33,896 bases of DNA, taken from NCBI GenBank assembly GCA_020201435.1, contig JAIVGS010000193.1:1-33896 (forward strand). The letters are read 5' to 3'. The notes beneath the pieces are model-generated. The model was not told where the DNA came from. It ran no database searches and was given only the letters and a program-made list of their open reading frames with translations. This stretch comes from Myxococcales bacterium. GTDB taxonomy: Bacteria > Myxococcota > Myxococcia > Myxococcales > 40CM-4-68-19. This document shows positions 1-3,160 of this stretch, piece by piece; position 1 is the first letter of the stretch, and each line of letters opens with the position of its first letter. Position numbers and translations under genes: made by a program.

Positions 1-505
1 TGCGTCGTTCGAGGCGAATGTGCGCGGCGTCCTGTTCGATCGGTACGAACGGGCCCGTCCCGAGGAAACCCGCGCCGCTGCGCCGGAAGACGAACGTGCG
101 TGAAATCAGCAGATCGATGGGCAGCGATCGGTCATCGGATGAAACCAGCACCGCAGACCCTTCCTTCACGACACGCAGGTGATTTTCGAGGAGGGAAGCC
201 GCCACGTCGTCGACGGTCAGCGGTGCGCCGTCGCTGAAGTGCGCGTCATTCCGCATCCAGACGCGCACGGCATTCGGCGCCGCGATCTCGAATCGCGATG
301 CCAGCACCGGAACGGCGACGCCATCGGGTCCCAGCCGAACCATAGGCTCGAAGACCCATGGCTGCGCCACGGTCGCCCAGCTTCGCGAGAAGACCTCTGG
401 ACCGACTTTCTCCAGAGGTCCCGAGACCGCGATCCGAAGCTCCAGCGTTGCGGCAGGATGAACCGAACAGGCCGCAGTGCAGAGTGCGATCCAGAGCCCA
501 CGCAA
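1..505 (-). CDS. SBP_5-type extracellular solute-binding lipoprotein (partial)
   Basis: The C-terminus is cut off by the left window edge; about 168 residues are visible. The protein begins with a short hydrophobic leader (LWIALCTAAC) whose Cys fits a lipobox, so it is probably an outer-surface or periplasmic lipoprotein. After that come hallmarks of the SBP_bac_5 family of peptide/nickel ABC-transporter binding proteins: WVFEPMVRLGPDG, then FSDGAPLTVDDVAAS (the family's FSDG-P-TA-DV motif), then GTGPFVPIE. The start is taken as TTG at 505, because the frame is closed by TGA at 539-541 and contains no ATG or GTG. The leader is short, so the start is uncertain. It lies 20 bp after the 25-residue ORF and follows the radical SAM gene on the same strand, so it is probably co-transcribed. 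Its ligand is unknown; import or sensing of a modified peptide would fit the context. ABC permeases, if present, lie outside the window. Confidence 0.8.
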   Translation of the reverse strand, partial: MRGLWIALCTAACSVHPAATLELRIAVSGPLEKVGPEVFSRSWATVAQPWVFEPMVRLGPDGVAVPVLASRFEIAAPNAVRVWMRNDAHFSDGAPLTVDDVAASLLENHLRVVKEGSAVLVSSDDRSLPIDLLISRTFVFRRSGAGFLGTGPFVPIEQDAAHIRLERR

Positions 506-525
506 CGCGTGAGCTTTAAGTTTGG

Positions 526-603
526 CTACGGGTTGTTGTCAACCATCATCGGGCACCACATCGCGCGGCGGGTCGTGGTCCTCTTCGAGCGCTTGATCTT
601 CAT
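526..603 (-). CDS. 25-residue peptide, candidate radical-SAM substrate
   Basis: This tiny ORF starts with ATG at 603 and ends with TAG at 526-528. A GGAG Shine-Dalgarno sequence lies 7 nt before the ATG. It begins 23 bp after the radical SAM stop and ends 20 bp before the solute-binding lipoprotein start. The peptide has a basic, Thr-rich N-terminal half (MKIKRSKRTTTRR) and a distinctive C-terminal half containing AMWCPMMVDNNP, with a single Trp and a single Cys. Its length is close to PqqA and other short radical-SAM substrates. I do not recognise the family. The assignment as a precursor is inferred from position, ribosome site and composition. It shares a frame with the out-of-frame extension of the radical SAM gene, so chance is a real alternative. 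Confidence 0.45.
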   Translation of the reverse strand: MKIKRSKRTTTRRAMWCPMMVDNNP

Positions 604-626
604 CGTAGACTCCGTGGGACAGGGTT

Positions 627-1956
627 TCAGGCTGCTTCCGTCCACTCCTCTTCCGCGAACTCCGCGAGGTACCGGTGGACGACGGTCTCGCGGAAACTCT
701 TCTCGAACATCTCTTTCTTGCAGGCGACCTGGTCGCGGCGGCGCGTCTTGAGGCCCGCCGACGCAGACCGGCAGATACGGGCAGTCGCCACACTGCTCCC
801 AAGGCCGCAGCTCGACAAGCGGCGCGACCTTTTCAGAAGCCTCGACGGCGACTTGCGCCACTGCGAGGTCCGGCATTCCCGCGACCGCCGGACACTTGTA
901 GACGTTCCCGTCCGGGTCGATCGTGTAGCTGTTCTTCCAGTGCAATTCGCACGGCCCGAGCATCGACTCGAGCAGCTCGCCCTGCAGCACCGGCGCGACC
1001 ATCTTGCGCTTCTCGATGCTTTTGTTGAGCTGCACCAGTGTCTGCGTCTCGCCCTTGTACGAGCAGTTGGTGCAGGTGCCGCTCTCCTGCCGCTGCGTGT
1101 CGACGACCGGCTTGAAGCGCACGCCGTCGAGAAGATGAGCCACTCCCGACTGCTCGAGCCGATCGAGGAGCTTCTCGAACGAGGCCGCCTGCTCGGAATA
1201 GAAGTTTCCCCCGATCCGCACCTTGCAGCCGGCTTTCGCCAGCGCGACGACGTTCTCGAAGATGACGTCGAATGACCCGCGTCCGTCGCGGTAGATGCGC
1301 TCCCGGTCGTGCGTCTCCTTGTCGCCGTCGAGCGTGATCTTGAACGACCCCGCCCCGAAGCTCTCCATCTTCTTGGCGAAATCGACGTCGAGCAGGACGC
1401 CGTTGGTGGTCATCGTCCACTCGAACTCGCCGCCGCGCGCCTTCATCGCCGCGGAGAGCACTTGCGCGCTGCGCAGGCAGAAGTCCTTGCGCGTCGTCGG
1501 CTCGCCGCCGAAATAGTGGACCGTGATGGTCTTGAGCCTGCGCTCGTCGACGATCCTGAGGATCCACTCCAGCGTCGCGTCCTCGGTGGGCCGCGTCATC
1601 TTGGTGAAGGCCGGATGATCCTTCTGGAAACAGTAATTGCACGCGAGGTTGCACTGCAGCGTCGGCATCAGGGTGACCATCAGCGTGCCGGGGATGCCGT
1701 CGCTCGCCTTGTCGAGATAGTCGCGCACCCGGACGTCGTCGTCGGCGCGGCTGCGGACGAGAAAACCGTCGTCGAGCAGCGCCTGCTGGACGTCGCGCTC
1801 GTCGTCGCCGGCCGGCGTGTCGTCGTCGGCCCAGCGCGAGAGGGCGCCCAGGGTGAGATCGTCGACCCCGACGTAGCGGTCTTCGAGGACGCTGTAGAGG
1901 ACGTGCTCGCCGGGCCGGACGTCCTTGTACGAGACGACGAATCGCGACAACCGCAT
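627..1956 (-). CDS. radical SAM/SPASM peptide maturase, frameshifted near its 3' end
   Basis: The start is ATG at 1956, preceded by GAAGGGG. Residues 1-75 resemble the PqqD-like/RRE leader-binding module found on many peptide maturases (YSVLEDRYVGVDDLTLGAL ... LLDDGFLV). The radical SAM motif CNLACNYC has C102, C106 and C109, followed by HYFGGEPT and TMTTNG. The C-terminal SPASM region shows GTCTNC, GPCELHW, a DPDGNVYKCPA segment and CGDCPYLPVCVGG. Immediately after GG, near 752-760, the frame breaks. The convincing tail (GLKTRRRDQVACKKEMFEKS onwards, ending EEEWTEAA) lies in another frame and stops at 627. The family pattern CxxCx5Cx3C lacks its last Cys at the break, so a small deletion is more likely than a one-base error. 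The unshifted frame runs on to 526 as low-complexity sequence. The product probably modifies a ribosomal peptide, most simply the 25-mer encoded next. Confidence 0.85.
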
Positions 1957-2018
1957 GCGCCGCCCCTTCGCAACCGCAGTGCCAGCGCAACAATCCGAAC
2001 ACGCGCCAGAGGGAAAGA

Positions 2019-2052
2019 GCCAGTTTTCGGGCCTCGGGCCAGTTTTCTGGCC
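2019..2052. promoter_or_regulatory. tandem palindromic sites upstream of the radical SAM gene
   Basis: A perfect palindrome GGCCAGTTTTCTGGCC (2037-2052) is preceded at a 19-bp period by a related copy GCCAGTTTTCGGGC (2019-2032). They lie 60-100 bp upstream of the maturase start, in the divergent region shared with the 2229 gene. Two copies about two helical turns apart suit a dimeric repressor. The regulator is unknown. The rest of 1957-2228 shows no clear gene. Confidence 0.35.
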
Positions 2053-2228
2053 GGTGGCTGCTGGCTCGGGATCCGGCCTCCAAACCCTGGCGGGGTCCGC
2101 GGCGAATCGCGCCGCGAGCCGTAAAACGACGGCGGAACAAGGAGTTGCAGGGGGAGCCAGCAATCTGGCCCCACCGGCCCGATCCGTGGCCGGACCCATG
2201 GCGCGCCAGTTGCTTTCCGAAACGGACC

Positions 2229-2447
2229 GTGACCCAGCAAAAACCCATTGAGGTGCGCCACCTGCGAGCGGGCGGGCGCTTGATCCCGGTCCAGTTCTTC
2301 CGCAACGCGGGCGGCTCGGTCGCCGGCCGCTTCGTGCTCGGCGCGGAGGACACCCCCATCGTCGACGGGCCCACCCCCGACGCGGTCCTGGCCGTGCTCA
2401 GGGACGTGATCGACGGGCTGCTCCTGGCGCGGAAGAAGGTGGCATGA
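2229..2447 (+). CDS. small protein of unknown function (72 aa)
   Basis: I do not recognise this protein. It is soluble and compact, with a pattern suggesting a short beta-sheet region (IEVRHLRAGGRLIPVQFF, then AGRFVLGAEDTPIVDG) and a C-terminal helix (DAVLAVLRDVIDGLLLARKK). The chosen start is GTG at 2229; GTG at 2253 is an in-frame alternative, and neither has a strong ribosome site. Its TGA overlaps the ATG of the next gene (ATGA at 2444-2447), so the two are translationally coupled and probably act together. It is divergent from the radical SAM gene. Confidence 0.6.
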   Translation: MTQQKPIEVRHLRAGGRLIPVQFFRNAGGSVAGRFVLGAEDTPIVDGPTPDAVLAVLRDVIDGLLLARKKVA

Positions 2448-3160
2448 GCGTCGCCCGCAACACGGCGACGCAGGAGATCGGGCGCGAGCTGCCCGTGGCG
2501 GACGCTGCCGAAGTGCAGCGCTTCGCCAACGCCGGACGGCTCGCGGCCTCGGTCTCGCACGATCTCCTTTCCGCTCTGGGAGTGGCGCAGACCGACATCG
2601 GGTTTCTCTGCGACCTGGTCGAGCACCTCGATGGGAAACGCGACATGCGCGAGGCCGCCGAGGACGCCCGGACGGCGATCTCGCGGGCGGTGTCGCGGAT
2701 CGCCGCGGTGCTCAGCCTGGCGCGACCGCGGCGGGGGGAGATCGCCGCGCTCGACGCGCGCGAGGTGATCGGGGCGGCGCTGTTCGATCTCGACGCCCGC
2801 CTGGCGGGTTACGAGATGTTCTACGATCTCCAGCAGGTGCCGCCGGCGCGGGCCGAGCGCGGCGCGCTGTTGCAGACCATCGTCTCGCTGCTGCTCGACG
2901 CCGCCGACGCGACGCCGCAGCGCGGGCGGATCGGCATCACGCTCCGTGCGCACGCGGAGATGGTGTCGATCCTGATCGACGACGAAGGTCCCTCGCCGCT
3001 TTCGCCGGAGATGCTGGCCGAGTGGCCCAACAGCCCGCTCTGGATCTGCCGCAACGTGATGCGCGCGATCGGCGGCGAGCTGGTGGTGGGGCTCGGTCCG
3101 TTCGGCGGACGGCGCGTGACGCTGCAGCTGTCGACCGATCTCACCGACTCGTGCGCTTGA
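2444..3160 (+). CDS. soluble histidine-kinase-like protein with degenerate ATPase part
   Basis: The protein has 238 residues. An H-box (GRLAASVSHDLLSALG, candidate phospho-acceptor His39) opens a HisKA-like dimerisation helix pair at about residues 25-100. The following region resembles a HATPase_c domain, but the N-box position reads LLLDAADATPQ, without the usual Asn, and only IDDEG recalls the G1 box. There is no transmembrane segment, PAS, GAF or receiver domain. It may be an orphan soluble kinase, a phosphotransfer protein, or a catalytically weak kinase acting as a partner. It is coupled to the 72-aa protein by ATGA, and no response regulator lies nearby. Its 3' end overlaps the convergent TVP38 gene by 20 bp. 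Confidence 0.65.
   Translation: MSVARNTATQEIGRELPVADAAEVQRFANAGRLAASVSHDLLSALGVAQTDIGFLCDLVEHLDGKRDMREAAEDARTAISRAVSRIAAVLSLARPRRGEIAALDAREVIGAALFDLDARLAGYEMFYDLQQVPPARAERGALLQTIVSLLLDAADATPQRGRIGITLRAHAEMVSILIDDEGPSPLSPEMLAEWPNSPLWICRNVMRAIGGELVVGLGPFGGRRVTLQLSTDLTDSCA

Follow-up and report, generated by a model that had tools for sequence, protein, structure and literature searches.

A predicted RiPP operon joined to an orphan SBP_5 lipoprotein and a sigma54-type two-component system is conserved in three bacterial phyla

Introduction

Radical SAM RiPPs, sigma54 two-component systems and peptide-binding SBPs are already known separately. Among the radical SAM enzymes the closest described ones are the SCIFF/ranthipeptide maturases (CteB, TIGR03974), PapB (NF047865) and the geopeptide maturase (TIGR04280). 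CteB, a thioether-forming synthase (structures 5why/5wgg), has an RRE-rSAM-SPASM architecture (PMC8326336). PapB couples Cys to the carbon that adjoins the Asp or Glu carboxylate, and it also accepts other spacings (PMC9413430). In the methanobactin operon (MbnA/MbnT/MbnE) MbnE resembles OppA/AppA and pairs with MbnT (PMC7558416). The PrgZ/TraC and Phr pheromone systems of Gram-positives also use OppA-type SBPs; they act by import and with unmodified peptides.

Here we describe a locus in a stretch of 33,896 nt (the window), contig C53 of the 4.76 Mb draft genome of a Myxococcales bacterium. A sequence-only reading had noticed a radical SAM/SPASM enzyme, a 25-residue ORF and an SBP_5 lipoprotein, and had recognised no described family with this trio. 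The trio held and is conserved in three phyla, and none of the curated families matched the maturase above its own cut-off.

Like the SCIFF maturases, the enzyme combines an RRE with radical SAM and SPASM domains and matches the fold over its full length, and Cys thioether chemistry is likely. It differs in reaching only 71.7 bits with TIGR03974, far under the cut-off of 425, in its precursors, which across the compared set have 22–34 aa and normally one Cys as opposed to six Cys in 45 residues, and in the attached SBP, kinase and sigma54 regulator. As in PapB (PMC9413430), the predicted link would run from Cys to a residue with a carboxylate; however, the spacing is +5 instead of CX3D, the CX3D/E motif is not met, the C-terminal residue is the likely partner in 13 of 39 peptides, and the score with NF047865 (115.9 bits) does not meet the cut-off of 340. 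TIGR04280 was the best NCBIfam match for the maturases of all lineages (204 bits for the window, 204–261 bits overall), but its cut-off of 400 was reached in none of 195 genomes of the phylum and in no other genome searched. An overlap with the little-described Geobacter geopeptide system is possible; the gene context of true TIGR04280 loci was not compared.

With the methanobactin operon the family shares a tiny RiPP precursor and an OppA-like SBP without known permease (PMC7558416). The likeness in the TonB receptor is limited to one of the three phyla, whereas the SBP is present in all of them. In contrast to methanobactin, the present family has a radical SAM maturase, a dCache kinase and an NtrC-type regulator and lacks a conserved copper-ligand motif; no recurrent MbnB/MbnC-like (oxazolone/thioamide) gene was noticed in the neighbourhood clusters, without a model search. 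Kinase, regulator, -24/-12 promoter and paired upstream palindromes are as in NtrC-family sigma54 two-component systems, but here they come with an attached RiPP operon and an orphan SBP_5 lipoprotein. As in the OppA-type pheromone systems, an SBP_5 lipoprotein stands as a possible peptide receptor beside peptide-dependent regulation; differences are the missing permease, the membrane kinase, the predicted modification of the peptide and the diderm hosts.

Results

Arrangement of the locus and the maturase family

All three reading frames lie on the minus strand in the order maturase, 25-mer, lipoprotein with intergenic gaps of 23 and 20 bp, and a GGAG ribosome site is located about 7 nt upstream of the ATG of the 25-mer (Table 1). 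In these points the sequence-only reading held. Its maturase required a correction, a frame change near 753–757 that had gone unreported, and its lipoprotein an addition, truncation by the contig end and continuation on a second contig.

Table 1. Features of the locus and of the adjoining divergent genes, with positions in the window.
Feature	Position	Strand	Remarks
SBP_5-type lipoprotein, N-terminal part	1..505	-	starts TTG 505, cut by contig end; continues G000:C166:3-638
25-residue precursor peptide MKIKRSKRTTTRRAMWCPMMVDNNP	526..603	-	one Cys, Asp at Cys+5; homologous ORFs, codon bias
RRE-radical SAM/SPASM peptide maturase gene	627..1956	-	Pfam Radical_SAM, NCBIfam, relatives; frame disrupted near 753-757
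sigma54 -24/-12 box TGGCACTGCGGTTGC	1970..1984	-	exact match, 13 nt before maturase ATG
palindrome pair (2018-2033, 2037-2052)	2018..2052		GGCCAR-N4-YTGGCC type
second palindrome pair (2155-2170, 2176-2191)	2155..2191		GGCCAR-N4-YTGGCC type
divergent sigma54 box TGGCGCGCCAGTTGC	2199..2213	+	conserved in relatives
divergent 72-aa ORF (VTQQKPIEVRHLRAGGRLIPVQFFRN...)	2229..2447	+	recurs after divergent sigma54 box in relatives
soluble histidine-kinase-like protein gene	2444..3160	+	HATPase_c 5e-4, HisKA 0.037

The maturase matches Pfam Radical_SAM (1e-18) and is 71–89% identical to its genus relatives. The cysteines of the radical SAM motif CxxxCxxC (C102, C106, C109) are invariant in 40 relatives and also present in the window, and seven SPASM cysteines (C336, C355, C389, C392, C398, C402, C418) are invariant among the relatives. 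An AlphaFold2 model of the maturase of the sibling locus L108, based on an alignment with 40 relatives, reached a pLDDT of 88.5 and a pTM of 0.86, and its best full-length match in the PDB was CteB. The claim of a PqqD-like N-terminus held: residues 1–84 are predicted with high confidence (pLDDT about 89–94) to form an RRE of three strands and helices. Pfam PqqD did not match the maturase, and the domain rests on the structure model only. We conclude that the enzyme belongs to the broad class of RRE-dependent radical SAM/SPASM RiPP maturases, the RRE being predicted by the model and the peptide modification inferred. In a maturase tree the Acidobacteriota form a firm group of their own (100/100) and the Myxococcota together with locus L110 (Byssovorax) a second one (100/100); the third phylum is only weakly grouped (63/79).

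A net 17 nt present in L108 are missing from the window inside the maturase, near the frame change, and this deletion takes out the conserved SPASM Cys of ‘VGGCLGG’. The copy is either truly broken or misassembled; the sequence cannot decide between a lesion and an assembly error. Its uncorrected frame contains no stop before the 25-mer, and an ORF caller would merge both. In the relatives the maturase ends at its own stop and the peptide begins shortly downstream in a varying frame, in two Acidobacteriota with a start that overlaps the maturase stop by 4 nt. Given this separation by a stop and a frame change in the relatives, we regard the fusion as an artefact of the window contig.

The short ORF is a conserved precursor gene

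A homologous short ORF is located directly after the maturase in 39 of the 40 assessable loci, i.e. those in which the contig continues past the maturase, and these cover all three phyla. The sole exception is L110. The ORFs mostly carry a ribosome site, and in five close pairs 51 of the 80 base differences affect the third codon position. The patterns differ between the phyla: MKIKRS.RKSTR....C... in Myxococcota, MKITVIKKA..AKPQNFCPW..[DE]... in Acidobacteriota and MKVKVVKKG.KSTKTQLTGCLAYFF in the third phylum, where variants end in CRPVVW, CWPFWH or CKPVVY. One acidobacterial precursor (L093) starts with GTG. Locus L090 has three tandem precursors downstream of the maturase (+34 to +373); in the first of them Arg replaces the Cys (LRPWLVD), and the remaining two are nearly identical.

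The 25-mer is thus a genuine gene and more than a chance ORF. The comparative data all but exclude that it is non-coding DNA or merely the tail of the maturase frame. Only the uncorrected frame of the window contig, which enters the 25-mer without a stop, speaks for it; the relatives show a maturase stop, a homologous ORF in another frame, mostly a ribosome site and a synonymous bias of the changes, and we rejected the C-terminus interpretation on account of the stop and the frame change. The sequence-only reading had named two outcomes that would refute it, namely the lack of a conserved short ORF in related loci and a 25-mer varying like non-coding DNA. Neither was met: the short ORF and SBP_5 recur in Myxococcota, Acidobacteriota and the third phylum, and the differences concentrate on the third codon position.

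A carboxylate or the C-terminus at Cys+5

When 39 precursors were compared, a basic start was common to all, and the sole invariant residue was the Cys, which is single in nearly all of them. The Trp is not conserved, and the WCP-like core expected in the sequence-only reading failed: Cys alone is invariant, with a carboxylate at +5. Position Cys+5 is Asp, Glu or the C-terminal residue in 34 of the 39 precursors (one of the C-terminal partners is itself a Glu), and the five exceptions have Ile, His, Val, Cys and Ser. Between Cys+1 and Cys+4 there is one carboxylate in 156 positions and none at +4. The precursors are related by descent, therefore the count of 34 is not to be read as a probability. 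The rule recurs in three phyla and is realised differently, by a side chain or by the terminus. The cores vary strongly inside one genus.

From this pattern we infer that the maturase product is probably a Cys-to-(+5) thioether macrocycle of six residues; both the modification and its chemistry are inferred. In the C-terminal cases the ring partner would be the alpha-carbon of the last residue. The role of the 25-mer as maturase substrate is supported by the conservation, its modification remaining an inference.

The gene unit in three phyla

Homologous loci were found in 13 of 147 genomes of the window’s own class, in 19 of 396 genomes of Acidobacteriota (the phylum of L009 Luteitalea) and in 10 of 46 genomes of a third phylum (that of L008). 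They share a unit of maturase, one-Cys precursor, SBP_5 lipoprotein, periplasmic-sensor histidine kinase and NtrC-type response regulator. In Acidobacteriota all 19 loci have the order regulator, maturase, peptide, SBP, kinase on one strand (contig ends cut some kinase matches). In 11 of the 12 assessable loci of Myxococcota the order is maturase, peptide, SBP, kinase, and the regulator is convergent where the contig reaches it. In the third phylum a TonB-dependent receptor adjoins the operon in 9 of 10 loci and the regulator lies beyond it; L146 of this phylum has no kinase within 7.9 kb. In the window’s own genome the SBP remainder, the kinase and the convergent regulator are located on C166:3-3680, and about 107 nt between the two contigs are missing from the assembly. 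Sequence comparison thus shows one conserved unit in three phyla, and a functional unit is well supported because all members are kept despite the rearranged order.

The maturase of L110 is 51–54% identical to the window’s family and has neither precursor, SBP and kinase nor a sigma54 box; we regard it as an orphan copy. Relatives on plasmids (Methylomagnum, Methylovirgula, Thermus) and the more distantly related loci L011–L025 were also considered and set aside: they contain the enzyme superfamily without the SBP or kinase unit.

The neighbourhood of the unit lacks a conserved exporter or protease. Regarding the further neighbours, TonB-dependent receptors stand beside the operon in L139, L141, L144, L145 and L147 of the third phylum, and none homologous to them was found at loci of Myxococcota or Acidobacteriota. 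L139, L141 and L147 also have FetAB-like (UPF0014) genes, and in L147 fetA overlaps the kinase end. In the window’s own genome (L137, G000:C166, 3684–5185) msrP/msrQ-like genes for periplasmic methionine sulfoxide repair are located directly upstream of the NtrC-type regulator on the same strand; they also occur upstream of the regulator in L099, L101, L107 and L108. Genes for lipoamide dehydrogenase and 2-oxoacid dehydrogenase E2 are recurrent neighbours in Acidobacteriota (L080, L088, L098, about -6300 to -3200), and their recurrence suggests an old fixed position.

Lipoprotein, kinase and regulator

The lipoprotein fragment matches PF00496 (4.6e-5), and most relatives have a lipobox. The SBP model shows the SBP_5 fold (pLDDT 91.5), and the closest solved folds are the peptide binders MppA, AppA and OppA and the metal or metallophore binders NikA and CntA; MbnE-type structures are also among the relatives. 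A role as part of an Opp/Nik importer was rejected: no BPD_transp_1 permease was located near the SBP in the six genomes checked. The missing permease and the tie to the kinase and sigma54 regulator favour an accessory receptor for the kinase, which we consider more likely than import; ligand and binding are inferred. That the lipoprotein binds a peptide, perhaps the product, as had been proposed, hence remains an inference, with the protein looking like a receptor and not an importer. In L138 a second SBP-like gene (+1770 to +2273, truncated by the contig) follows the first in the same direction.

The gene after the SBP encodes a membrane histidine kinase with a dCache-like sensor, HisKA and HATPase; HAMP was detected in the members of Acidobacteriota and the third phylum that were tested. 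The regulator consists of Response_reg, Sigma54_activat and HTH_8 (receiver, sigma54 activation domain and Fis HTH). Together with the -24/-12 promoter, this meets the criteria of a sigma54-dependent two-component system.

Sigma54 boxes and palindromes upstream of the operon

The pattern TGGCRCN5TTGC occurs only twice in the window, both times at the RiPP locus, where 0.21 matches were expected for the whole window. Every operon-bearing myxobacterial locus has a sigma54 box at -28 to -31 with a score of 13–14 of 14 (background at score 13 or more: 0.063 per kb). In Acidobacteriota a box of score 12 or more (background 0.28 per kb) lies within 150 nt of the maturase in 18 of 19 loci, and in the third phylum nearly all loci have a box before the maturase. 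The gap between box and ATG is similarly short in all box-bearing myxobacterial relatives; the transcript should therefore be leaderless or nearly so.

The divergent box is conserved in L099, L100, L101, L105, L107, L108 and L111, and L103 has a TGGAAC variant. A soluble kinase-like gene follows the small ORF in L100, L103, L108 and L111. Between the opposed boxes sit the two palindrome pairs, with a spacing of 19–21 bp. Perfect palindromes numbered 12 in 17.2 kb of upstream DNA versus 1 in 607 kb elsewhere, an enrichment of about 400-fold. Such upstream sites were found in two phyla; the third-phylum loci show essentially none. The window’s own genome has four exact sites, of which only the one at the RiPP locus is next to sigma54 boxes; with this strict pattern the three further ones gave no other regulon target near a sigma54 box.

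The pairs are likely binding sites of the response regulator, for which there are no binding data. Since sigma54 boxes and palindrome pairs concentrate at the RiPP locus, it is very likely, by inference, that the NtrC-type regulator controls its own RiPP operon; in the window’s family the divergent small ORF with the soluble kinase is probably under its control as well.

Discussion

We propose that the locus is a sigma54-controlled RiPP signalling unit with an autoinducing peptide loop. The case for this reading is about as strong as the case against it, and chemistry, ligand, direction of sensing, secretion and induction are all inferred. In this model the RRE would bind the basic N-terminal half of the precursor, and the rSAM/SPASM enzyme would join the Cys sulfur to the carbon adjoining the carboxylate of residue Cys+5 (on the side chain in Asp or Glu, otherwise that of the C-terminal residue); the result would be a thioether macrocycle of six residues, of the ranthipeptide type. 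The product, probably trimmed, would exit the cell by an unidentified route. In the periplasm the SBP_5 lipoprotein, without a permease of its own, would capture it and serve as co-receptor for the dCache kinase; in the third phylum the TonB-dependent receptor would first take it back in. The kinase would activate the NtrC-type regulator, which would bind the paired palindromes and switch on sigma54 transcription of the operon, resulting in autoinduction.

Several results support this reading: the gene order conserved in Acidobacteriota, Myxococcota and the third phylum (the latter with the TonB receptor), the kinase, regulator and SBP_bac_5 domains, the sigma54 box at its fixed position with palindromes concentrated upstream, and an SBP without permease whose fold is nearest to peptide- and metallophore-binding SBPs. 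The chemistry is supported by the carboxylate or C-terminus at Cys+5, by CteB as best fold match and by the PapB precedent for Cys-Asp/Glu thioethers (PMC9413430). Against it stand the absence of a conserved exporter or protease nearby, the five peptides that break the Cys+5 rule, the near absence of palindromes in the third phylum, the lack of a nearby kinase in L146 and the frameshift in the window’s own enzyme. Furthermore, the signal read by the SBP and kinase may be a metal, a different peptide or envelope stress, with the RiPP merely turned on in response, and the TonB receptor found in the third phylum, like its FetAB-like genes, suits metal handling as well as signalling. For peptide quorum sensing only the genetic layout and the autoregulatory promoter arrangement are shown; secretion and self-induction are inferred.

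A bolder reading, for which the evidence falls a little short, is a diderm RiPP pheromone family with a single-Cys precursor, a six-residue Cys-to-(+5) thioether ring including C-terminal closure, sensing by an orphan SBP_5 and dCache kinase, and its own sigma54 promoter driven via the NtrC-type regulator. As part of this reading, the diversity of the cores inside a genus would fit strain- or species-specific signals.

The main rival, which remains possible, is a metallophore-type RiPP like methanobactin: the modified Cys peptide would bind metal outside the cell and return via a TonB-dependent receptor, SBP_5 would hold the product, and kinase and regulator would report metal or loaded peptide. 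The TonB-dependent receptor in 9 of 10 third-phylum loci, the FetAB-like (UPF0014) genes in several of them, the NikA, CntA and MbnE-type structures among the SBP relatives and the methanobactin parallel of an OppA/AppA-like MbnE with MbnT (PMC7558416) speak for it. However, the precursors conserve no set of metal ligands other than one Cys, and their cores diverge widely inside a single genus. The loci of Acidobacteriota and Myxococcota have neither a conserved TonB receptor nor a conserved metal gene, and the thioether would consume the sole thiol.

Alternatively, the signal for SBP and kinase could be some unrelated nutrient or stress, in response to which the modified peptide would be made as an intracellular or envelope cofactor, following a PQQ-like logic. 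Radical SAM RiPP enzymes also produce cofactors, and msrPQ-like genes are located beside the regulator in the window’s family, but hypervariable cores do not match a conserved cofactor and no partner enzyme recurs across the phyla, making this unlikely. Variable cores combined with a paired histidine kinase and response regulator are reminiscent of regulated bacteriocin operons, and this layout could suggest an antimicrobial RiPP under two-component control that acts on neighbours, with SBP and kinase for immunity or induction; in the absence of a conserved exporter, peptidase or immunity gene, and with a very short precursor with one Cys, we consider it unlikely as well. No exporter was found that would serve the autoinducer reading or any of these three alternatives.

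Compared with the systems known so far, the new element is the union of a radical SAM RiPP, a sigma54 two-component system and an SBP of the peptide-binding kind in one conserved operon, together with the Cys/+5-carboxylate precursor family, without a curated family above cut-off. A literature search of limited scope for geopeptides, or for RiPPs combined with an SBP or with a histidine kinase and sigma54, gave nothing relevant. If the signalling reading is true, a radical-SAM RiPP is linked to a sigma54 two-component system and to an orphan lipoprotein that binds peptides, and it would predict a Cys-to-(+5) thioether including C-terminal closure, an SBP/kinase receptor pair and a defined promoter and operator, all of them testable; the 39 natural precursors offer ready-made substrates for the maturase. 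The hosts of the unit are largely uncultured Myxococcota, Acidobacteriota and members of the third phylum, in which, to our knowledge, no peptide signal of this kind has been described. Gram-negative soil bacteria may thus possess, in this unit, a peptide signal system not described so far.
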